From: Belliella pelovolcani
GTDB lineage: Bacteria > Bacteroidota > Bacteroidia > Cytophagales > Cyclobacteriaceae
Assembly (NCBI RefSeq): GCF_900156785.1
Contig: NZ_FTOP01000006.1
Coordinates: 124,001-188,000, forward strand
Direction of reading: 5' to 3'
DNA: 64,000 bases
Below, piece by piece: positions 27,069-58,176 of the stretch; position 1 is the first letter of the stretch, and each line of letters begins with the position of its first letter. Position numbers and translations under genes: made by a program. Under the pieces are notes generated by a model. It saw nothing but the letters and a program-made list of their open reading frames with translations. It was not told the origin of the DNA and made no database searches.

Positions 27069-28097
27069 ATGACAGCAATTGACCAAAGCGCGATTTTTGC
27101 ATCCAATTATTTTTATTTCATCCAAGTAGATCAAGATGGGATATTGCAAAATGCAAATCCAAACCTTAAGTCTCAACTTTCCTTGTTTCCGAATTCATTG
27201 ATTGGTCAAAGTCTTGAAGAAGTTCTATTTCCAAAGGATTTTTTAAATTATCAAAATTCTCTCAAAAATGCATTAGAAACCAGCGAAAGAAATTTCAAGA
27301 TTGACCTCAGAAAGATGAAATCAGATGGCTCAGACTTTCATTGGACTAGATGGGAATTTAGTATTGAAGCAAATACCAAAGGAGAAATCAAAATATCTGG
27401 TATTGGTCATGACATTTTAAAAAACAACGAGAAAACAATAGAATTCCCCAATTTCATCTACGAACACCAGATTAAAAATGAAATCATGGAAGGTTTATTT
27501 GAAGATAATTTGATTGGTTTTTGGCTTTGGGATATAGAAAACCAAAAAGACCAACTGAGTGTATCTCTCAAATATATGCTTGGCTATGATTATGAAGTAG
27601 AAGGAAAGTCGGAAGTCAAATGGCAAAGACATATTCACTCACAAGATAGGACCAAAGTACTGCAACAATTAGATGATCATTTTGCTAGTTATGGGAAAAT
27701 TCCATTTCATAGTGAAATGCGCGTGAGAACCTTACTAGGTAAGGAAATATGGGCAATCGCCTATGGTAAGGTGATCAAATGGGACAAAAACGGAAAGCCT
27801 GTCAACATGGTTGGTTGCTTCTTTGATGTCTCCGAAAAGAAAAAATCTGAGGCTATTCTTGAAAAGCAAAGTCAATTCCTGAAAGAACTTACTTTCAATC
27901 AGTCCCACTTAATGCGGTCCAAACTAGCCAATATCATGGGTATACTCGAAGTAATGCAACCAAAAAAGAGTCCTGAGGAACTCCCAGAACTCTTGGCTTT
28001 ATTAAAAGAAGAAGCATTCAAACTTGATAAGGCACTACAAGACAGCATACACTCTTCAAGTTCTCTAAACCAAAAGAACTTTGAAAACAATGATTAA
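27069..28097 (+). CDS. Two-PAS sensor protein with a DHp-like helix but no kinase domain
   Basis: 342 residues. PAS domain 1 spans about 10-118, PAS domain 2 (PAS_3 type, ENLIGFWLWDIENQ-like start) about 142-258, with WAIAYGKVIKWDKNGKPVNMVGCFFDVSEKKK as its typical end. A coiled segment then leads to FNQSHLMRSKLANIMGILEVM, which has the shape of a histidine-kinase phosphoacceptor helix (His280, xxRxxLANIxG). The protein ends 60 residues later with no HATPase domain. It may be a phosphotransfer partner or a sensor that pairs with a kinase elsewhere. No membrane segment. Its last four bases overlap the convergent DUF2911 gene. Confidence 0.82.
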   Translation: MTAIDQSAIFASNYFYFIQVDQDGILQNANPNLKSQLSLFPNSLIGQSLEEVLFPKDFLNYQNSLKNALETSERNFKIDLRKMKSDGSDFHWTRWEFSIEANTKGEIKISGIGHDILKNNEKTIEFPNFIYEHQIKNEIMEGLFEDNLIGFWLWDIENQKDQLSVSLKYMLGYDYEVEGKSEVKWQRHIHSQDRTKVLQQLDDHFASYGKIPFHSEMRVRTLLGKEIWAIAYGKVIKWDKNGKPVNMVGCFFDVSEKKKSEAILEKQSQFLKELTFNQSHLMRSKLANIMGILEVMQPKKSPEELPELLALLKEEAFKLDKALQDSIHSSSSLNQKNFENND

Positions 28098-28681
28098 TTG
28101 CCTAATCGCACTGTCAGTTTAAATCCTTTATTTGCCCATTTGAAGTGAATCTCTCCTCCACCATCGCCTTTACTGATCACTTCAAATTTCAATTGTTCTT
28201 CAGTTTCGTCCAAACTAACGGATGGTACTTCAAATCTGGCCACATCTTCCGCTTCATCATAATCATCGGCTAGATGCTGTTCATAATTGGTATTAAATAT
28301 AACGGTCCAGCTATCTTTCCGAGGAATCGTGAATAGCGCATATTTTCCTGCCGGTATCACTTCCCCCTCAATCTCAAGACCTTCATTGAAAGAAATACTG
28401 GTGGCCGAATGTGCCCCGGTTACCCATACTTCATCAAAGGCCACGAGTCCTCCGAAAATCTCTCTCCCTCTTACACTTGGTGCAGAATAGTCTATGTGCA
28501 CATGGTTGGACCCAATATTGGCCATGGCTGCCGTTCTTGGGCTTTTGGAATTGGACGCTCCAGCATGTGCACTATGGTCATGATGGGCATGTTCATCTTT
28601 TGCTACTTCCTTCTCCTCTGTCTTGTTGGAGGTGCAGGAGATACTTAATAATAGAGCGGCGATGATTAATTTATTTTTCAT
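28094..28681 (-). CDS. DUF2911 lipoprotein of the metal-efflux operon
   Basis: 195 residues with a lipoprotein signal (MKNKLIIAALLLSISC, Cys16). A His-rich metal-ligand-like stretch (DEHAHHDHSAHAG) follows, then the DUF2911 domain: HVHIDYSAPSVRGREIFGGLV, EVWVTGAHSATSISF and GKYALFTIP. The domain's function is unknown. The His cluster and its place as last gene of the Cus-type operon suggest periplasmic metal binding (inference). It is separated from cusB by a 210-base spacer that holds an inverted pair of AATATC-type arrays. It overlaps the PAS gene end by four bases. Confidence 0.85.
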   Translation of the reverse strand: MKNKLIIAALLLSISCTSNKTEEKEVAKDEHAHHDHSAHAGASNSKSPRTAAMANIGSNHVHIDYSAPSVRGREIFGGLVAFDEVWVTGAHSATSISFNEGLEIEGEVIPAGKYALFTIPRKDSWTVIFNTNYEQHLADDYDEAEDVARFEVPSVSLDETEEQLKFEVISKGDGGGEIHFKWANKGFKLTVRLGN

Positions 28682-28710
28682 GTTTTCCAGTTTAAATTCA
28701 CTTTTGAATT

Positions 28711-28890
28711 ATATAGATATTAGTTGATATTTAGATATTGGGATATTTCATAAGACTCTATATCAAAGTATCCAGGAATATCAATCACTATCTTAATCCT
28801 ATAAACTACTAATTTTTTGAATATTGAAGGTCGCCCGATAATTTACCGGACGAATATCCAAATATCAATTTAATATCAACCAATATCTAT
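28711..28890. repeat. Inverted pair of AATATC/GATATT arrays (cusB-DUF2911 spacer)
   Basis: Left arm 28711-28748 reads in GATATT orientation (for example AGATATTAGTTGATATTTAG). The right arm, 28853-28890, reads in AATATC orientation and ends two bases before the cusB stop codon. The arms are imperfect complements about 100 bases apart. The same motif fills the other spacers of the operon. Confidence 0.85.
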
Positions 28891-28891
28891 T

Positions 28892-30655
28892 TTAATGCTG
28901 ATGCCCCACCTGTACCTCCGCCTGGTTACCAGATGAAGAAGTCACCCTTTTCCCCGGCTGATAAGCTTCCCTGACTTCTCCACAGGTCAGCATCATGTCC
29001 CCGAAATATGGATTTCTGATTTCCTTTTCTGAGCTCAGCCAATAGGCTCCCTGGTCTTTGAAGGCCATGGGGCAATACTGACGGTAAATGGTGTTTTCCA
29101 CTACACCAAAGTATTCCACTGCTTCAATCAGGTTGTCCGAAAGGGTCTCGAAATGCTTTCTTTGCTCCTCTACATCTGAAGTCTGTGTGATTTTATCCAG
29201 ACTGCTCTGCATAGGTCTCAACAGTTCCATCCAAATATCATGGGCCTTTCCTTCCAAAAGCTTCATATCCACTTTGGCCAAACTGGCTTTGGCTGGACTG
29301 ATTGTTTTTTGGGTAGCATCCGCATCGGTTTTGACCAAGGCATCTTTGATGGGAAGATAGCTTTGAACAAAAGCCGTAAGCTGTTTTCTAAACTCTTCCG
29401 GTGTATCCAAAGTCTTCACTTCCGGCCTGGTCATCATGCTGTAATTTCCACTCAACTGTGCCGCTGCATCAATGGCAAAAACCCCATTACTAACCACCTG
29501 ATCACCTTCTTCTACTCCTGACAAAACCAAGTAGTCTTCACCTACCCTTGGCCCCAATTCTACCTCACGCATCTCAAATGCCGGAGCTTCCTTATCCCCT
29601 ACCTGCACATAGACCACCGATCTAGGCCCCGTCCAAAGTATCGATGTCTTTGGAATCATCAAACCTGACTGACCCGCTTGAGCAGTAGAGATATTGGCTG
29701 AGACAAACATCTCTGGCTTCAACTCAAAATTCCTGTTTACTGCTTCTGCCCTGACGCCTACAGTTCGGGTATCAGGATTCAAGACAGGGTCGATATAAGT
29801 CACCTTGGCCTTGAACTCCCTTCCAGGATAAGCAGAAACCGAGAAACTCAAATCATCTCCTTTGCGAATTGCCCCGAGATCAGATTCATAAGCGTCAAGA
29901 ATGACCCAAACATTACTTAAATCAATGATTTCAAACAAAGCCGATCCCCTACTCACAAAATCTCCCACTGCAATATTTCTTGCTGTCACCACACCCGCCA
30001 CATCAGCATAGACATCAAATTGGGTCTGAACCTGACCTGAACTTTCTATAGCAGCAATTTGCTCCTCTGAAATCTTCCAAAGTCTCAGTTTTTCTTTAGC
30101 AGCTTGGTACAAGGCCGGTTGGCGCTCTTTGATTTTGGCCGTTTCCAACAATTCCTTTTGGGCATTGACCAGTTCAGGGGAGTAGAGGGTCGCTAATTTT
30201 TCACCCCTTCTGATCTCCTGCCCGGTAAAGTTGACAAATAACTGGTCCACCCTTCCCGCATAATTGGCGGTAAGGCTTTTGACCCGCTGTTCGTTGGCTT
30301 GAATTTTCCCGGTCAGAGTTAGTTTTCCTGAACCTGATCCAGATTTCACCCTAGTGGTCTGCACATTGGATAATGCAACTGCCTCGGGAGTCATTTCCAA
30401 CACAAAAGGACTGGATTCTCCGCCCTTTTTATTGCTGACTGGAGTAAGTGCCATACCGCAAAGCGGACATTGCCCAGGTTCATTTTGACGGATTTGCGGG
30501 TGCATAGAGCAAGTATATTCCACACCGTTTTCGTCAATATGCGTATGCTCGTGGTCAGGATGCTCTTCTCCTCCTCCACGAATCAGATATCCCGCTACCC
30601 CTCCAAAAAGAAGACAGCTGAGGATTACGATTACTATTTGCTTATTTTTGATCAT
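28892..30655 (-). CDS. cusB: RND efflux periplasmic adaptor, CusB type
   Basis: 587 residues. It has an N-terminal anchor (IVIVILSCLLFGGVAGYLI) and a His-rich segment (EEHPDHEHTHID). A heavy-metal-binding domain follows (YTCSMHPQI...PGQCPLCGMAL, residues 47-70), then the membrane-fusion-protein hairpin, barrel-sandwich and beta-barrel regions to about residue 400. A C-terminal DUF3347 domain (about 415-560) includes CPMAFKDQGAYWLSSEKEIRNPYFG. It links CusA to the outer-membrane channel and hands Cu(I)/Ag(I) to the pump. It lies between cusC and the DUF2911 gene. The Cys/Met/His motifs fit copper or silver best, but no metal is proven. Confidence 0.92.
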   Translation of the reverse strand: MIKNKQIVIVILSCLLFGGVAGYLIRGGGEEHPDHEHTHIDENGVEYTCSMHPQIRQNEPGQCPLCGMALTPVSNKKGGESSPFVLEMTPEAVALSNVQTTRVKSGSGSGKLTLTGKIQANEQRVKSLTANYAGRVDQLFVNFTGQEIRRGEKLATLYSPELVNAQKELLETAKIKERQPALYQAAKEKLRLWKISEEQIAAIESSGQVQTQFDVYADVAGVVTARNIAVGDFVSRGSALFEIIDLSNVWVILDAYESDLGAIRKGDDLSFSVSAYPGREFKAKVTYIDPVLNPDTRTVGVRAEAVNRNFELKPEMFVSANISTAQAGQSGLMIPKTSILWTGPRSVVYVQVGDKEAPAFEMREVELGPRVGEDYLVLSGVEEGDQVVSNGVFAIDAAAQLSGNYSMMTRPEVKTLDTPEEFRKQLTAFVQSYLPIKDALVKTDADATQKTISPAKASLAKVDMKLLEGKAHDIWMELLRPMQSSLDKITQTSDVEEQRKHFETLSDNLIEAVEYFGVVENTIYRQYCPMAFKDQGAYWLSSEKEIRNPYFGDMMLTCGEVREAYQPGKRVTSSSGNQAEVQVGHQH

Positions 30656-30690
30656 TATACCTTTTTTAAAGTCTAACCATAATTCCTTTT

Positions 30691-30808
30691 GATGATAGAT
30701 ATTGATGGATATTAGATATTAATGGATATTGGGGTGCAACCAGTCAGAACCCTAATATCCAATATCCAAATATCAATCAGTATCCATTAATATCCATTAA
30801 TATCAATT
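30691..30808. repeat. Inverted pair of AATATC/GATATT arrays (cusC-cusB spacer)
   Basis: Left arm about 30691-30735 reads GATATT; right arm about 30752-30808 reads AATATC. They are near-complementary around a short centre containing CAACCAGTCAGAACC, and the GGGGTG/CACCCC ends also pair. The right arm contains AATATCCATTAATATCAATT (30789-30808) and touches the cusC stop codon. The 20-base string recurs exactly at 32924-32943. Confidence 0.9.
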
Positions 30809-32335
30809 TCACACCCCAACCAACGTTTCTAATCTCGCCAACTGAATCTCCCTCCCAATCCTCGTATTCAGCAAATTCAACCTGAAATCCAGTAATTCTC
30901 TTTGGATGCTCAGGATCTCTTCGAAGGAACTACCTTCCGTTGCGTATGAAGTCACGGAGAGCTCCAGTGTTTGCTCGGTCAATTCAATTTGATCTTGTAA
31001 GAGTCGGATTTTACGGTCAGCATCTTTGATGGCTACCAATATGGTTTCAAACTCGGTCTCCAAATTTCTTTGCAGATCTTCCTTCTGACGCTCGTTTGCT
31101 TCCCAGTAAAGCTTGGATTCTGCCTCCATGGCTTTGTACTTTTTGCGGTAAATCGGCAGGGAAACCGTTGCCATCGGCATGATCATGTTGTTGCCCATAC
31201 CAGCTGGCATGTAATCCATTCCACCCATACCTCCAGGCACGCCCATTTCAGGTCTTGGAGAAAATACCATATAATTCAACCCCAATCCAAACATGGGTTT
31301 ACCTTCCAATTTGGCCATTTCACCTTGCTTCTGATAGGCCAACCCTTCTTTTTCCAGCATCAACAGCATGGGATTGGTATCCAGGATTTGCTCGAGCATT
31401 TCCACTTCCCAGCCAATGGACTTTTGACTTTCTAACTGGCTTTCTATAGCTATGGCTTCATTTTTATCCCTGCCTAACAGTTGATTGAATTTTACTGTCA
31501 ATGGGCGTTTGTCTACCTCCAACTGTTCCAAATCAGACTCTAAAGCCTTGATCTGAACTTGCAGTCGGAGTACATCCGTGAGTTTACCGGAACCTCCACC
31601 CGAACCCATACTGTTCATGGCTGCACCTGAAGATTGCCCCGAGGAAGCAGCGGAAGAACCTCCACCTCCCATGCCCATCCCATCATCTCCACTGCCCTGC
31701 TGCATCGTCCGTGCTGGCCTCCTTACCGCTGATGAAACAGATGAAACAGCCTCAGAAGTACTTCCTCCCTGATAGCGGATGATGGCCAATTGCTCCAATG
31801 ATTTCAAAATCTCCAAATTGGATACGGTGATGTCAATGGTATTTTGCAATTGCTGTAATTGGAAGTAGGTTTCCTTGACCTGATACAGAAGCACATTACG
31901 CTGCTGTCTGAATTCCTCGTATTTGGCTCCCGCCATCAGGGTAGCTTCATCCTTCTGCGTCCTGAGCATCCCAAACCAAGGAAACATCTGCATCACCGAA
32001 GCCTCTGCCCGCTGATTCCCCATCAGCAATTCCATAGGTCTAGTAAATACACCGATATTTAATTGGGGTGATTCAAGACTTACTTGGTTTGTTTTTTCTA
32101 ATGAAGCCTGATACCCTTTAAAAGATGCTTGAAGTCCTGGATTATTTTCAGCTGCTTCTTCTAGGTATTGGTCTAAAGTTTGACCTTGGGCTAATCCTAT
32201 ATTCAACAGCCAAATAAACACTAGGAATAGATATTTGTGGATATTGGATATTGATTGATATTGTACCAGAGCTTTAAGCTGTTCCTTTGATTTCAGGCAT
32301 TCGGATAGGCAATATTTTTCTGTAAATCTGTTCAT
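30809..32335 (-). CDS. cusC: TolC-family outer-membrane channel, CusC type
   Basis: 508 residues. The mature protein has the TolC/OEP helical repeats (QTLDQYLEEAAENNPGLQASFKGYQASL at the start) and a Gly/Ser/Met-rich insert near residue 210-245 (GMGMGGGG). Another Met/Gly-rich stretch (GVPGGMGGMDYMPAGMGNNMIMP) may help metal passage. The start is odd: the signal-peptide-like helix (KYLFLVFIWLLNIGLAQG) begins only at about residue 34, and residues 24-36 are encoded by AATATC repeats. The ATG at 32335 overlaps the upstream gene's stop by four bases. A GTG just before FIWLLN would give a much shorter leader. It provides the exit duct for CusBA. Confidence 0.88.
   Translation of the reverse strand: MNRFTEKYCLSECLKSKEQLKALVQYQSISNIHKYLFLVFIWLLNIGLAQGQTLDQYLEEAAENNPGLQASFKGYQASLEKTNQVSLESPQLNIGVFTRPMELLMGNQRAEASVMQMFPWFGMLRTQKDEATLMAGAKYEEFRQQRNVLLYQVKETYFQLQQLQNTIDITVSNLEILKSLEQLAIIRYQGGSTSEAVSSVSSAVRRPARTMQQGSGDDGMGMGGGGSSAASSGQSSGAAMNSMGSGGGSGKLTDVLRLQVQIKALESDLEQLEVDKRPLTVKFNQLLGRDKNEAIAIESQLESQKSIGWEVEMLEQILDTNPMLLMLEKEGLAYQKQGEMAKLEGKPMFGLGLNYMVFSPRPEMGVPGGMGGMDYMPAGMGNNMIMPMATVSLPIYRKKYKAMEAESKLYWEANERQKEDLQRNLETEFETILVAIKDADRKIRLLQDQIELTEQTLELSVTSYATEGSSFEEILSIQRELLDFRLNLLNTRIGREIQLARLETLVGV
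32229..32262. repeat. GATATT array inside the 5' end of cusC
   Basis: Reads GATATTTGTGGATATTGG and continues with two more GATATT units on the plus strand. It lies inside the coding region and is inverted relative to the arrays at 32823-32945, so the two enclose the four-helix-bundle gene. Confidence 0.8.
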
Positions 32336-32724
32336 TTCAATTCTTTTTTTGAATTGTAAATAGATTGAATGTAGTTGTTGAGTTTGAGTGAAAGTTTGTC
32401 AGATAATTGCTTGAAGTCATCAAACTCCTCCTTTGAAATAATTTCTCTTTCAAGCATCAAGCTTAACCAGTGATTTGCGGACTCAATCATAGAACCTCTG
32501 CTATTGTAGAGAAACCTGATTCTATCCAGGTAATGAAAACGACCATAGGACTCAGCTATATTTGCCCCAATAGAATCCGTCGATTCAATAAATTGATCAC
32601 CAATTATTTTCCGTGTCTGCCAATCCATTTTTTTATAAATAACCCATCCCTTCCGCGACAGCTGTCTAGACAATTTATACACCTCCAAATCCTCCAATTT
32701 TATATACCCCTTTTTCTCTTCCAT
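32332..32724 (-). CDS. Four-helix-bundle protein (S23/IVP family)
   Basis: 130 residues with the typical start KLEDLEVYKLSRQLSRKGWVIYKK and the conserved QFIESTDSIGANIAESYGR and FLYNSRGSMIESANHWL blocks. The family was first seen encoded in 23S rRNA intervening sequences and includes Avd-like proteins of diversity-generating elements; its biochemical role is unclear. It sits between cusA and cusC, where no such protein belongs in a canonical Cus system. Oppositely oriented AATATC arrays flank it. The stop overlaps the cusC ATG (ATGA), so it may drive cusC translation. No reverse transcriptase or variable repeat is visible nearby. Confidence 0.88.
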   Translation of the reverse strand: MEEKKGYIKLEDLEVYKLSRQLSRKGWVIYKKMDWQTRKIIGDQFIESTDSIGANIAESYGRFHYLDRIRFLYNSRGSMIESANHWLSLMLEREIISKEEFDDFKQLSDKLSLKLNNYIQSIYNSKKELK

Positions 32725-32822
32725 ATCATTAAAAGATTACTTAAACCAAAGACTACTAATAACATTTACCCCATCTCCTCAATTGCCAACCAGCTAAATA
32801 TTCAAATTAAACGCCTGAAGAC

Positions 32823-32945
32823 CAGCCCAATATCTAATATCAATGAATATCCATCAAAACCCATAAGCACTTTCCCATAACCAAATAAACGTTTGATAAC
32901 CAAACCAATATCCACCAATATCCAATATCCATTAATATCAATTCT
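32823..32945. repeat. AATATC arrays in the cusA/four-helix spacer
   Basis: Two clusters in the same orientation: 32828-32853 and 32905-32943. The second contains AATATCCATTAATATCAATT (32924-32943), identical to 30789-30808, and stops six bases from the cusA stop codon. Confidence 0.85.
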
Positions 32946-32949
32946 AAAT

Positions 32950-35900
32950 CTATCTCCTTATCTGATACTCCCTAAGTTTCCCATAAAGCACCGGCACAAT
33001 AAATAGTGAGATAAGCGCCACCGTCATCCCCCCAAATGCTGGAATGGCCATGGGAATCATGATGTCGGAGCCTCGGCCTGAACTTGTCAATACTGGAAGC
33101 AAGGCCAATAATGTAGTTGCTGTTGTCATCAGGCAAGGTCTAACCCTTTTCAGTCCAGCTTCCAAGACTGCTTTTCGTACTTCTTTGGCATTCTCTGGCT
33201 GGATTTTTTCGAAGCTTTGTTTTAGATAGGTACCCATCACAACCCCATCATCGGTAGCGATACCAAAGAGGGCGATAAACCCTACCCAGACTGCCACAGA
33301 GAGATTGAAGGTGCGCATCTGGAATAGTTCCCGCATATTTGTTCCGAGGAAACTGAAATCAAAGAACCAGTCCTGCCCATATAACCACAGCATCATAAAG
33401 CCTCCTGAGAAAGCCATGGCAATGGCTGAGAAGATCATCAAAACCATGGCAGTAGACTTGAACTGAAAGTAAAGAATCAGGAAAATCACGGCCAAACATA
33501 GCGGTATCACTATCGCCAAACGCTTCTCAGCACGGATCTGATTTTCGTAACTTCCGGAGAAAGTGTAGGATACCCCGGTAGGTACTTTCAACTCACCGCT
33601 GTCAATTTTTTGCTGGATAAAGTTTCGCGCATCATCTACCACTGAACCCTCAGCAAAGCCATCTCGCCTATCAAAAAGCACATAACCCACCAAGAAGGTG
33701 TTTTCCCCACGGATCATCATGGGGCCAGGTCTGTAATTGATCTCTGCCAACTGACCCAAAGGTATCTGTGCACCTGTAGGCGTGCTGACCAAAATCCGCT
33801 TCAAAGCTTCGGGATCATCCCTGTACTCTCTGGCATATCGGGCACGGATGGCATAGCGCTCCCTGCCTTCCACCGTTGTGCTCAAGGTCATTCCTCCTAT
33901 AGCCACTTCGATAAATTCCTGCACATCGGCAATATTCAGCCCAAACCTACCCAGTTGGGTTCTATCCAAATCAATCTCCAAATACGGCTTGCCCAAAGAA
34001 CGGTCTGCAAAAACTGCCTCAGACTTTACGGAAGGCACTTCTTTCAACACCGACTCCAACTTCAAGCTGAAATCCTCTATGGTTTCCAAATCTGGACCAT
34101 ACACTTTCATCCCCATAGGAGCACGCATTCCCGTCTGCAACATCACCAAGCGGGTTTCGATAGGCTGGAGTTTAGGTGCGGAAGTTACCCCAGGAAGATT
34201 GGAGGTTCGCACCTGGATTTCATCCCAGATATCATCAGGCGTGCGGATTTCATCCCTCCACTGACGGAAGTATTGACCACGTCTTTCATTTGGCACCAAG
34301 TATTTGGCGACATTTCTAATCACCGACCTGCGCTGGGATTCCTCCATGTAATTCTTTTCTTCATCCCAAATAGCTCCATCCTGACGGTCATACCACCAAG
34401 TCTTACCATTAACTTCAAGCTGATAATTCCCCTCTCGATCTACTTCAAATCGGAGCTTGCGGGCATCATTATCCTGTAGGTATTCGGTCTTGTAATTGAT
34501 GATGTTTTCATACATAGACATGGGAGCGGGATCAAGCGGGCTTTCCGCACGGCCTGCTTTTCCAACCACCATTTCCACCTCCGGAATGGCCTGCACCAAC
34601 ATGTCAAGCTGTTTCACAATCTGCATATTGGCCTCCACGCCGGAGTGAGGCATAGAGGTAGGCATCAAGAGGAAAGAACCTTCATTCAAGGCAGGCATAA
34701 ATTCCTTGCCCATTCCCGGTAGTGCATGGCAAAGACCTGACCAAACAGAAGTTGTTCGGATATTCCACCCCACCTGATCGAAACCTTTGGCGACAAAGCC
34801 AAAAACACTATTGAATCCGAGCCAGATATTGGTAGCAAATAGGATAACCAATGCAGGAAGTAGAAGAAAAACTCTAGCATGCTCCAAACACCATTTCAGC
34901 ATGTGAGCATAATATTTGATGAATAAAGAGAAAAGACCCAAAACCAAACCCACTACCAGACCAATAAAAATAAAGTTAACGAATACAGATTGGGTCAAAC
35001 CCAAAGGCCTCCATTCAATCGCCAATAAAACGGATACTGCCACCACAGCTATCAGCATGGCAATCTGATTTTTGTATTGTCCTTCTCTGGTTTGTTTTGG
35101 GAAAAAGTGGTGGATCAAATGATTGACCGCAAAAGCCAACAAGACCCAACCTGCCCAAGGGAAGTAGAAAAGCAGCACAAAGCCCAAAACTGCCATGGCT
35201 ATATTTAGCACCATCTTATAATTCTTGGACTTCACCTTCGCACCAAACACCCAATGGGCAAAAGCCGGCATGAATACCAAAGTAAAGATCAAGGCAGCGA
35301 TCAAAGCAAAGGTCTTGGTATACGCCAATGGCCCGAACAACTTCCCTTCTGCTGCCTGCAAAGTAAATACAGGCAAGAAGCTGACAATCGTAGTCATCAC
35401 AGCCGTCAAGATCGCAGAACTCACCTCTGTAGTCGCATCGTAAATTACTTGTAGTTTGGATTTTTTATCATCCGATTCTTCTAGATGGCGAAGGATATTT
35501 TCATTCAAAATAATCCCCAAATCCACCATGGTTCCGATGGCAATGGCAATCCCAGATAGCGCCACTATATTCGCATCCACCCCCACATACTTCATCATGA
35601 TAAAGCACATCAAAACTGCCAATGGCAACAATGCAGAGATCAAAATCGAAGCCCGCAGATTATACACCATCACCATAATCACAATAATGGTGATCAAAAT
35701 CTGCAAGCTGATGGCTTCATTAAGCGTATTCAGGGTTTCCTTGATCAGGCCAGAACGGTCATAGAAAGGCACAATAGTCACCTTGGAGACCGTACCATCT
35801 TCCAGCGTTTTGCTCGGAAGTCCAGGAGAGATTTCATCGATTTTAGCTTTGAGGGCATCAATTACTTGAAGGGGATTATCCCCATAGCGAGCTACTACCA

Positions 35901-36816
35901 CGCCACCTACTGCTTCAGCACCACCTTTATCCAAAATAGCCCTTTCCGCCCTGCTTGCCGGCCCAATATTCACTTTGGCAATATCCCTGATTCTCAAGGG
36001 TACATTGTTGCTGGTTTTGACTACCGCCTTTTCGATATCCTCCAGAGACTTCACATAGCCCAAGCCTCTGACGATAAATTCCACCTGATTGATCTCCATG
36101 GTATTGGCGCCGATATCGAGGTTGGATTGCTTGATGGCATTCATCACCTGCATCATGGAGACGTTGTGGGCCTTCATGGCCACAGGATCCAGGTCCACCT
36201 GATATTCCTTGACATGCCCTCCTATGGTCGCTACCTCAGCAACTCCTTCTGTACCTGCGAGTCCATAGCGCACATAATAATCCTGAATGCTACGGAGTTC
36301 GTGCAGGTCCCAACCACCGACTGGATTGCCATTTTCATCTCTTCCTTCAAGTGTATAAAAATATACTTGCCCAAGACCTGTGGCATCTGGCCCGAGTTTG
36401 GGTTGCACCCCCTCGGGTAGCAATCCTGAGGGAAGTGAATTGAGTTTTTCCAAAATCCTGGATCGGCTCCAGTAGAACTCAATATCCTCTTCGAAGATGA
36501 TATAGATGGAAGAGAACCCGAACATGGAAGTGCTTCGAATGGATTTGACCCCTGGCATTCCCAAAAGGGAAGTAGTCAGCGGATAGGTAATCTGATCCTC
36601 CACATCCTGAGGAGAGCGTCCCATCCAATCGGTAAATACGATTTGCTGATTTTCCCCGATATCCGGAATGGCATCGACCGGCACAGGGTCATTGGGAAGA
36701 AAACCGGTGTTCCAATTGAAAGGAGCAGTCACTATTCCCCATGCCACGACGAGGACAAGTAGGATGACGGTGACCAGTTTATTTTCGAGGAAGAATTTTA
36801 TGGTTTTATTGAGCAT
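32950..36816 (-). CDS. cusA: Heavy-metal RND efflux permease, CusA/CzcA type
   Basis: 1288 residues, longer than the roughly 1040 of E. coli CusA. Family blocks are clear: VPVDAIPDIGENQQIVFTDW, the TM4 proton-relay Asp432 (GIAIAIGTMVDLGIILNEN), VVGKAGRAESPLDPAPMSMYENI and GIATDDGVVMGTYLKQSFE near the end. The extra length lies mainly at 528-635, where about four added membrane helices interrupt the usual link to the second half. A second stretch with a Trp/Tyr-rich segment (NGKTWWYDRQDGAIWDEEKNY) lies in the second periplasmic loop. It pumps metal from periplasm or membrane to the outside using protons. It is the first large gene of the operon; no adjacent regulator is present. Confidence 0.92.
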   Translation of the reverse strand: MLNKTIKFFLENKLVTVILLVLVVAWGIVTAPFNWNTGFLPNDPVPVDAIPDIGENQQIVFTDWMGRSPQDVEDQITYPLTTSLLGMPGVKSIRSTSMFGFSSIYIIFEEDIEFYWSRSRILEKLNSLPSGLLPEGVQPKLGPDATGLGQVYFYTLEGRDENGNPVGGWDLHELRSIQDYYVRYGLAGTEGVAEVATIGGHVKEYQVDLDPVAMKAHNVSMMQVMNAIKQSNLDIGANTMEINQVEFIVRGLGYVKSLEDIEKAVVKTSNNVPLRIRDIAKVNIGPASRAERAILDKGGAEAVGGVVVARYGDNPLQVIDALKAKIDEISPGLPSKTLEDGTVSKVTIVPFYDRSGLIKETLNTLNEAISLQILITIIVIMVMVYNLRASILISALLPLAVLMCFIMMKYVGVDANIVALSGIAIAIGTMVDLGIILNENILRHLEESDDKKSKLQVIYDATTEVSSAILTAVMTTIVSFLPVFTLQAAEGKLFGPLAYTKTFALIAALIFTLVFMPAFAHWVFGAKVKSKNYKMVLNIAMAVLGFVLLFYFPWAGWVLLAFAVNHLIHHFFPKQTREGQYKNQIAMLIAVVAVSVLLAIEWRPLGLTQSVFVNFIFIGLVVGLVLGLFSLFIKYYAHMLKWCLEHARVFLLLPALVILFATNIWLGFNSVFGFVAKGFDQVGWNIRTTSVWSGLCHALPGMGKEFMPALNEGSFLLMPTSMPHSGVEANMQIVKQLDMLVQAIPEVEMVVGKAGRAESPLDPAPMSMYENIINYKTEYLQDNDARKLRFEVDREGNYQLEVNGKTWWYDRQDGAIWDEEKNYMEESQRRSVIRNVAKYLVPNERRGQYFRQWRDEIRTPDDIWDEIQVRTSNLPGVTSAPKLQPIETRLVMLQTGMRAPMGMKVYGPDLETIEDFSLKLESVLKEVPSVKSEAVFADRSLGKPYLEIDLDRTQLGRFGLNIADVQEFIEVAIGGMTLSTTVEGRERYAIRARYAREYRDDPEALKRILVSTPTGAQIPLGQLAEINYRPGPMMIRGENTFLVGYVLFDRRDGFAEGSVVDDARNFIQQKIDSGELKVPTGVSYTFSGSYENQIRAEKRLAIVIPLCLAVIFLILYFQFKSTAMVLMIFSAIAMAFSGGFMMLWLYGQDWFFDFSFLGTNMRELFQMRTFNLSVAVWVGFIALFGIATDDGVVMGTYLKQSFEKIQPENAKEVRKAVLEAGLKRVRPCLMTTATTLLALLPVLTSSGRGSDIMIPMAIPAFGGMTVALISLFIVPVLYGKLREYQIRR

Positions 36817-36964
36817 AGTTTCTTGGACTAAATGCTGTTTTTCTGATTGAACTTTTGATTTTTAGAATCAGAAATTAATTGATATTCTGATACTTGTAGA
36901 TACTTAAACCCCAAAGTAAACCTATTATTTTGATAAAAGGGAAATAGCGGATAAAGCTATGGCT

Positions 36965-36997
36965 AGACCCGTCAGGTTTTGAAAACCTGACAGGTCT
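36965..36997. repeat. Palindrome of the AGACCTGTCAGGTTTT type
   Basis: 16-base arms (36965-36980 and 36982-36997) around one base, with one mismatch. The sequence AAAACCTGACAGGTCT belongs to a palindrome I recall as recurrent between genes in Bacteroidota. It could also end the transcript entering from the HYC_CC_PP gene. Confidence 0.8.
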
Positions 36998-37024
36998 TCA
37001 ACCTAAACTAGATGCAATAAATAA

Positions 37025-37060
37025 TTCTTTGCGGTCTTTGCGCCTTAGCGTCTTTGCGTG
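37025..37060. repeat. CTTTGCG repeat
   Basis: Three CTTTGCG units (37027-37033, 37036-37042, 37052-37058) within 36 bases. It is another short intergenic repeat type, directly downstream of the HYC_CC_PP gene. Exact genome copy number cannot be seen here. Confidence 0.65.
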
Positions 37061-37071
37061 AAACAAAAAAA

Positions 37072-37452
37072 TCAAATCAGAAATACCTGACAAAAAATAT
37101 AAATCGGCGTATTGTGAAATATAGGGGGAGAGGAATCAGCAAAAGCTGTTTTCTCGTCAAAAACAATAAAATTCAGGGGCAATTCAAATGAAAACTCAGC
37201 ATTCAATAATTCGAAAGTCTGAGGTTGGAAATTCAAAACATCGGAAACCTGCTGATCGGAATTCGGAAGCTCCAGATTGGAGACATCATCGCAACAACCC
37301 TGCATTGGAGTATTGGCCTCACAGCAGGATTTATACTCCGCAAAAACATTAATCCTCTGAAAATCATCTTCACAAAAATGCATGGAATAGCTCAACCCTG
37401 CGTTAAAAAACACATAGAAAACAAGGAGTGCTATTTTGATAAATGACTTCAC
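37072..37452 (-). CDS. HYC_CC_PP-family small secreted protein
   Basis: 126 residues with a signal peptide (MKSFIKIALLVFYVFFNAGLS) read from a GTG start. The mature part has the spaced motifs HFC (25-27), CC (43-44), CC (53-54) and a Pro-Pro near residue 108 (SSPPIFHN), matching the small Bacteroidota family named after HYC, CC and PP. Such genes sit beside heavy-metal pumps. The Cys and His residues suggest metal or redox sensing in the periplasm (inference). It is upstream of cusA, separated by 255 bases that hold a palindrome and a CTTTGCG repeat, so it may be transcribed alone. Confidence 0.72.
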   Translation of the reverse strand: MKSFIKIALLVFYVFFNAGLSYSMHFCEDDFQRINVFAEYKSCCEANTPMQGCCDDVSNLELPNSDQQVSDVLNFQPQTFELLNAEFSFELPLNFIVFDEKTAFADSSPPIFHNTPIYIFCQVFLI

Positions 37453-37696
37453 GATGAACTATTACGATACAAAGGTATGAAAGTTTTGATTGATAAATGT
37501 ATATAATTTTTGTTTGATTTAATAATATGCAACCTATCTATGAAAAGACAGAAACGAATAATGAGTCAAAAACAGTTTTGATACCTCTGATGACATTAAA
37601 TATGGAAATCCAAAAAGAATTCCGTTGTGGCCTTTTAGATTTTTGTATTGATCTATTTTAAATATATTTAAGAGTTTAAAATCACTCCAAAAACCT

Positions 37697-57799: not shown

Positions 57800-58107
57800 G
57801 AAGATTGGGGGCTCGCGCAGATTTCGCTGATTTCACAGATTTATTTCTTTGGATGAATTGAGGGGCTAGGGATTGAGTTATTAAGTTATTGAGTTATTGA
57901 GTTATCAGTTGATTTGGGAAGAGGGATTGAAAGATTGGAAAATTAGAAGATTGGGGGCTCGCGCAGATTTCGCTGATTTCACAGATTTATTTCTTTAGAT
58001 GAATTGAGGGGGTAGGGATTGAGTTATTAAGTTATTGAGTTATTGAGTTATTGAGTTATCAGTTGATTTGGGAAGAGGGATTGGAAGATTGGAAAATTGG
58101 AAGATTT
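57800..58107. repeat. Two tandem copies of a roughly 150-nt repeat
   Basis: Copy 1 begins at 57800 and copy 2 at 57946 (period 146). Each holds GGGGGCTCGCGCAGATTTCG and TGATTTCACAGATTTA, an intergenic motif I recall as widespread in Bacteroidota, then octamers TGAGTTAT (four in copy 1, five in copy 2) and GGGATTG(A/G)AAGATTGGAAAA. The copies differ at only a few bases, so the duplication looks recent. This fills most of the 497-base space between cdaA and kbl. Confidence 0.9.
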
Positions 58108-58176
58108 AAAAAAAAGATAAGCTTCATAGAAAGTGGGATGGCTTCTAAAATAAAAAGGTCATTCATTTGTTTTAAT

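Follow-up and report, generated by a model that had tools for sequence, protein, structure and literature searches.

Although S23/IVP proteins were first described decades ago, no biochemical role has, to our knowledge, been assigned to them. The closest described system is the intervening sequence (IVS) of 23S rRNA: in the excerpt of PMC4990558, the S23 ORF occupies the loop of a stem formed by inverted repeats and excised by RNase III, heptamers of sequence GACAGAT precede the start codon, IVSs with an S23p ORF occur in Coxiella and Leptospira, the Coxiella ORF being said to decay, and a solved Xanthomonas relative is a homopentamer. The family profile, PF05635, is also described as Avd-like (excerpt of PMC10053308), and PF05635 genes occur in CRISPR-cas loci or are listed with CRISPR-linked domains, in excerpts of two papers where flanking motif arrays go unmentioned (PMC3936711, PMC10910872). 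In a library of open-access papers we found no description of motif arrays flanking S23 genes outside rRNA.

Here we describe an S23 gene enclosed by inverted hexamer arrays in a cus-type operon of Belliella pelovolcani, within a 64 kb stretch of DNA (the window). On balance, it is probable that the S23 protein and its arrays form a cognate pair, carried as an IVS-like cassette in a protein-coding operon, in which the protein would recognise the arrays.

The element between cusA and cusC

The element, its gene-free counterparts and the host genes (named by resemblance) are as follows.

32225..32949, minus strand: whole element between cusA and cusC, its arms paired round the ORF in the predicted RNA fold
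32332..32724, minus strand: S23/IVP four-helix-bundle gene, 130 aa (ORF, profile matches, fold model), candidate protein partner of the arrays
32907..32939, plus strand: outer 5' arm, AATATC x4 (GATATT on the coding minus strand), spacing 10-7-10
32829..32851, plus strand: inner 5' arm, AATATC x3
32230..32262, plus strand: 3' arm, GATATT x4 (AATATC on the coding strand)
30698..30804, strand not given: gene-free hairpin with the same arms (30698-30730 and 30754-30804), cusC-cusB spacer
28716..28887, strand not given: gene-free arm pair downstream of cusB (28716-28747 and 28853-28887)
32950..36816, minus strand: cusA-like RND pump ORF, host gene
30809..32335, minus strand: cusC-like ORF, host gene
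28892..30655, minus strand: cusB-like adaptor ORF, host gene

The initial annotation had placed the S23 gene between a GATATT array inside cusC and AATATC arrays on its other side, with close-set, gene-free arms in the other cus spacers, and both observations are borne out at the coordinates above. Read on the coding strand, the GATATT arms precede the S23 gene and the AATATC arm follows it. The 3' arm is in frame inside the predicted cusC ORF, where it codes for part of the N-terminal leader, and the S23 stop overlaps the predicted cusC start (ATGA). The window holds 132 copies of the hexamer where 59 are expected, and all seven of its dense clusters (at least three hexamers) fall within the cus operon; none of 200 windows simulated under a first-order Markov model holds any such cluster.

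The 130-aa protein matches PF05635 (E 1e-20, 74.4 bits against a cut-off of 33.8) and TIGR02436 (E 3e-20, 72.3 bits; cut-off 24), and the scans returned one Pfam match (PF05635) and three NCBIfam matches, with no transposase among them. Its modelled monomer is a four-helix bundle (mean pLDDT 92.8) whose best structural matches in Foldseek are 2GSC (TM 0.84) and 2RLD (TM 0.75), so that profile score and fold both place it in the S23 / 23S_rRNA_IVP family. The gene is under purifying selection, with a median dN/dS of 0.06 (32 usable pairs of 55, with synonymous sites near saturation). PADLOC returned no match, and a known defence gene was therefore rejected; an Rfam scan of the cus operon (28000-37500) gave nothing up to E 0.1.

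The architecture resembles that of the 23S rRNA IVS as excerpted in PMC4990558, in that an S23-family ORF sits inside stem-forming inverted repeats, with repeats ahead of the start codon, and the predicted fold encloses the ORF in repeats that pair as RNA. It differs in that the element lies in the mRNA operon spacer between cusA and cusC rather than in a 23S rRNA gene, its arms are arrays of spaced hexamers with gene-free arrays dispersed in the genome, and its ORF is under purifying selection, unlike the Coxiella ORF, which the same excerpt has decaying. A second comparison is with the Avd protein of diversity-generating retroelements, which shares the S23 fold (Foldseek 4DWL, TM 0.75, probability 1.00, E 0.008, weaker in E-value than the matches to 2GSC and 2RLD) but is 8% identical to the window protein; the neighbouring ORFs read beside S23 include neither a reverse transcriptase nor a template/variable repeat.

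The window genome has seven S23 genes, the window copy included, and 36 array sites (65 overlapping matches; a reversed-pattern control gave none). Apart from the cus sites, none of these lies close to an S23 gene: the smallest other distance between a site and an S23 gene is 10.7 kb. No such hexamer cluster occurs within 1.5 kb of any of the remaining six S23 genes, which excludes AATATC as the motif of S23 genes generally; different motifs lie alongside them (by eye).

Inverted arrays at S23 genes in general

The initial annotation had suggested looking for AATATC arrays beside other S23 genes. Inverted arrays proved to be common there, with motifs that differ by locus. We scored the 400 bp upstream of each gene against the reverse complement of the 400 bp downstream, with a threshold of at least 26, which was reached by 52 of 80 Bacteroidota S23 genes (among the matches listed) and by 9 of 119 other ORFs from the same stretches (Fisher p 3e-18); for the same 80 genes, direct and reversed controls reached it in 12 and 5 cases. 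The 80 genes are 7 from the window genome, 29 best-per-genome and 44 more among the matches listed (61 genomes), so that high-scoring members are over-represented. Two genes that scored below 26, that of L097, misplaced by a contig end, and one of L118, with 151 bp upstream, were kept within the 80. The arms are also polar: the upstream one is richer in G than in C in 48 of the 52 array-flanked genes (2 the reverse, 2 ties; Bacteroidota, among the matches listed).

A similar picture was obtained outside Bacteroidota, in six genomes with 6-9 S23 matches each, of which five are titled CPR/Patescibacteria and one (L058) bacterium only. Here 21 of 27 S23 genes reached a score of 26, against 2 of 35 other ORFs, and the upstream arm was richer in G than in C in 18 of the 21 (2 the reverse, 1 tie). 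These 27 come from the 30 of 48 matches that had loci, three being skipped for contig ends, and at least three of them repeat earlier loci (L325 is L060, L335 is L062 and L336 is L066). At nine loci from the contig scan, at least three of which are shared with the set of 27, the threshold was reached by 8 of 9 S23 genes and 5 of 42 other ORFs. In two large bacterial groups, inverted arrays of a short motif often surround S23 genes, the motif varying from locus to locus, and the existence of distant relatives with arrays of their own suggests that protein and repeat are a matched pair. The very small genomes G389-G394 (six, of 0.8-1.5 Mb, five titled CPR/Patescibacteria) have 6-9 PF05635 matches each.

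Motif, protein clade and empty sites

The contig scan gave 23 loci related to the window S23 locus. The order CusA-S23-CusC is found at 12 of them, in 11 named Cyclobacteriaceae strains and one Cytophagales MAG, and at 10 of these 12 S23 is preceded by clusters of three or more GATATT and followed by such clusters of AATATC; L049 has a cluster of three only after S23, and L067, with a truncated S23, has none. Three of the remaining 11 loci, all CPR (L060, L062 and L064), have GATATT/AATATC clusters on both sides, with an additional AATATC array at L064 between the first arm and the S23 gene. The other eight have GAAATT, GAAATA or GTAATT repeats in seven cases and none that are clear at L057; at L063 the repeats lie before S23 only. 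At L049 (from 4001) and L205, S23 and CusC are fused in a single open frame (634 and 630 codons, respectively), in which the array is read through. Upstream of S23 at L169 and L217, GAAATA repeats are interleaved with short units, e.g. TACTTCGT and TGCTTCGC, that look by eye like tiny UUCG hairpins.

Within the cusA-cusC site, sampled in Cyclobacteriaceae genomes and one genome of the order, the motif follows the protein. GATATT is present on both sides at 13 of 13 loci whose S23 is 71-100% identical to that of the window (one truncated), GAAATT at the single locus with 65% identity, and GAAATA at 12 of 12 loci with 46-56% identity, a count that leaves out L214 because a contig end misplaced its downstream window. 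Away from the cus site (by eye), L170, L171 and L172, with S23 at 48-49%, have GAAATA at the first and GATATA/AGATAT-like repeats at the other two, and genomes G306 and G338 (S23 about 40%) have neither GATATT nor GAAATA. On an unrooted tree of 44 S23 proteins, eight motif labels require 9 changes against a shuffled mean of 22.5 (0 of 200 shuffles as low), although some labels were set by hand, L226 was left out and near-copies inflate the clustering. The Cyclobacteriaceae GAAATT protein groups on this tree with CPR proteins that are mostly GAAATT (weak support, 90/52), two CPR GATATT proteins branch first, on the far side of the Cyclobacteriaceae GATATT clade, and L060 (GATATT) is placed among GAAATT proteins. 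Among pairs at 55-70% S23 identity from different genera (a set among the matches listed), the arms are alike in 11 of 43. Motifs thus turn over fast across the wider S23 family, and a motif-protein match beyond the window clade was rejected, similarity dropping quickly with divergence.

The initial annotation had also called for empty sites in the cus operon, and these exist. CusA was found in 116 of 148 family genomes, and none of 26 S23-free cusA-cusC junctions, judged by counts and by eye, has a cassette like that of the window (three, L269-L271, are near-identical): gene and arrays are absent together, as elsewhere at this site they are present together. In 25 of the 26, cusC homology starts 67-201 bp past the CusA match; at L284 the distance is 351 bp, with five scattered hexamers. 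A few repeats at L264 may be a relic, and the array at L267 is a different one. Of the 26 junctions, four are second cusA copies in S23-positive genomes.

These junctions bear on the idea that S23 serves the cus operon as its resident regulator, binding the spacer array RNA and setting mRNA stability or the translation of cusC/cusB. Such a role would fit the recurrence of CusA-S23-CusC in Cyclobacteriaceae, in a single genome from a different family of the order (L168, by eye) and in L061, a Bacteroidales MAG, the order S23-CusC-CusB at L063 (cusA out of reach), the arrays in successive spacers of the operon, the ATGA overlap, the fused frames of L049 and L205, and the low dN/dS. However, all 26 S23-free junctions do without the gene, including the four in genomes that have it, CPR S23 genes adjoin other genes (by eye), and the 36 AATATC array sites are spread across the genome, and we consider a dedicated operon regulator unlikely.

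Gene-free arrays and proposed recognition as RNA or DNA

AATATC tetramers of fixed spacing occur in 22 of 148 family genomes (reversed control, 0), and the S23 clade of the window (E <= 1e-20) in 34. All 22 fall within the 34 (p 6e-18, the genomes not being phylogenetically independent), as do all 24 genomes with at least 10 GAAATA matches. The GAAATA-type S23 is the one found in 11 of the 22 AATATC-tetramer genomes, and the GATATT-type S23 in 11 of the 24 GAAATA-rich ones: at the level of the genome, the match is to the S23 clade and not to the motif type. One genus fits by type, with 5 AATATC and 1 GAAATA matches in G379 (GATATT-type S23), 1 and 21 in G340 (GAAATA-type), and none of either in G269, whose S23 is truncated. 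A matching of gene-free arrays to the resident S23 genes over 460 kb of the window genome was rejected, the GATATT flank itself having no hit; at a score of at least 44, 3 of 7 resident flanks and 3 of 73 foreign ones had hits (reversed, 0), and a 12-mer version was noisy.

Flank enrichment, the tracking of clade by motif at one site, the nesting of array genomes within S23 genomes and the joint absence at empty sites support a repeat-protein partnership. It is broader than the one first proposed, AATATC itself being the motif of a single S23 clade and of some relatives in CPR. The contrary reading, in which slippage and recombination leave low-complexity arrays in spacers and S23 is merely a co-resident, draws on several facts: the majority of array sites lie at a distance from any S23 gene, and the cusC-cusB spacer of relatives is filled by arrays of other motifs, as at L046, whose S23 is the most similar to that of the window and whose spacer has both a GAAATA array and one of CTTATGTCTT type (the latter resembling by eye the flanks of L009, another S23 of the window genome). 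In addition, across a sample of 194 genomes from the order, 41 match a looser AATATC pattern, and many of these matches are plain microsatellites in genomes that lack this S23 (it occurs in 8 of the 194). The contrary reading is nonetheless very unlikely, given that the arrays are inverted about the gene on both sides with the G-over-C bias described above, that the motif tracks the protein clade at the cusA-cusC site, that spaced tetramers are absent from family genomes without the clade, and that other ORFs rarely have inverted flanking arrays.

The initial annotation further proposed an autonomous gene-bearing copy with the gene-free ones as its satellites, an idea that stays conjectural. 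Of 40 sampled distinct array sites across genomes, 28 have a single arm only; 13 of 43 tetramer sites fall within two dispersed repeat families of ~165 bp; and 11 of the 22 tetramer genomes have the mismatched S23 type. The sampled sites are mostly intergenic (38 of 40, against 50 of 200 random positions), and the single-arm ones have no strand preference (7 same, 10 opposite). The ~165 bp families end in short terminal inverted repeats, TGATTATCCGC..GCGGATATACA and TGATTATACGC..GTATATACAT, and have one central AATATC tetramer each; copies are seen in L016 and L021 around 1430-1600 (window genome) and also in L017, L020, L177, L178, L190, L039, L179 and L199. An Rfam scan of four array loci gave nothing at these repeats, and only two sub-threshold Phe_leader matches, at L021, about 1.2 kb from the array.

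RAYT, with which the S23 protein had been compared, is an HUH transposase. The comparison with RAYT and REP/REPIN may hold at the genome level, where dispersed short repeats accompany the gene for the protein, although the S23 type fits the motif in only 11 of the 22 tetramer genomes and these are not phylogenetically independent; it fails on the protein, S23 being a four-helix bundle of different fold with no transposase profile match, and on the repeat, which is an array and not a palindrome.

As RNA, the element (32225..32949) folds with its arms paired round the ORF at an MFE of -182.1 against -157.5 for shuffles (z -4.1, 0 of 20 as good), and the gene-free hairpin at 30698..30804 has a z of -3.5 (1 of 200 as good); for a 146-nt piece with one of the two arms at 28716-28887 the fold is no stronger than that of shuffles (z 0.2). 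When arms are exchanged between loci that share a motif, they pair as well as own-locus arms (p 0.37, 0.10). These swaps, together with the single-arm sites of either strand, leave RNA pairing as the sole constraint on the arms unsupported; that the motif is kept and exact pairing is not points to recognition by protein, as RNA, DNA or both. As to orientation, 43 of the 52 array-flanked S23 genes (among the matches listed) lie between two genes of the same direction as themselves and 3 between two opposite ones, the figures for 26 weakly flanked S23 genes being 12 and 7. Other gene triples are co-directional in 26 of 40, so the sense orientation in part reflects ordinary operon structure.

These results are relevant to a model in which an S23 oligomer binds the arrays as double-stranded DNA, in an architectural or site-marking role, with the element moved by another enzyme and the RNA hairpin incidental. 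The conserved motif with its inexact pairing, the lack of strand bias at single-arm sites, the fixed 10-7-10 spacing, and the tetramers found within dispersed repeats that end in short terminal inverted repeats would all suit it, but the 43 to 3 sense orientation, the folding of the element transcript, the rRNA precedent of processing as RNA, and the occurrence of Avd, of the same fold, in a ribonucleoprotein (from the titles of 8UB7 and others) argue against it, and we regard a purely DNA-level partner as rather unlikely.

We favor the cognate pair. The S23 gene and its inverted arrays would be one cassette, sense-oriented in operon spacers, whose protein, perhaps a homopentamer like its Xanthomonas relative, recognises the short motif repeated in its own arrays, here GATATT in 10-7-10 spacing. 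The protein would bind the arrays directly, with RNA as at least one recognised form; it may act in trans on gene-free arrays, and the cassette may spread. More tentatively, the S23/IVP genes of Bacteroidota and CPR could encode the protein component of a very large class of sequence-specific repeat-protein cassettes, with a motif particular to every clade; such cassettes would sit sense-oriented in operon spacers and seed gene-free arrays, with the rRNA IVS as a special landing place. The tracking of protein clade by motif offers a testable ligand for each S23 subfamily. If true, the proposal would explain many short-motif spacer arrays in Bacteroidota and CPR genomes, would have implications for how rRNA intervening sequences arose, and would perhaps explain why PF05635 genes surface in searches for array-linked genes.

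Other arrays are present in the window. At 57800-58112 a 146 bp unit, present twice, is composed of CGCAGATTT, ATTGAGTT and GATTGGAA arrays, and its GATTGGAA part resembles by eye the flanks of L013, an S23 gene of the same genome. At 37026-37059 there is a tandem array of TCTTTGCG, and similar CGCAAAG arrays are seen by eye in the cusC leader of L267.
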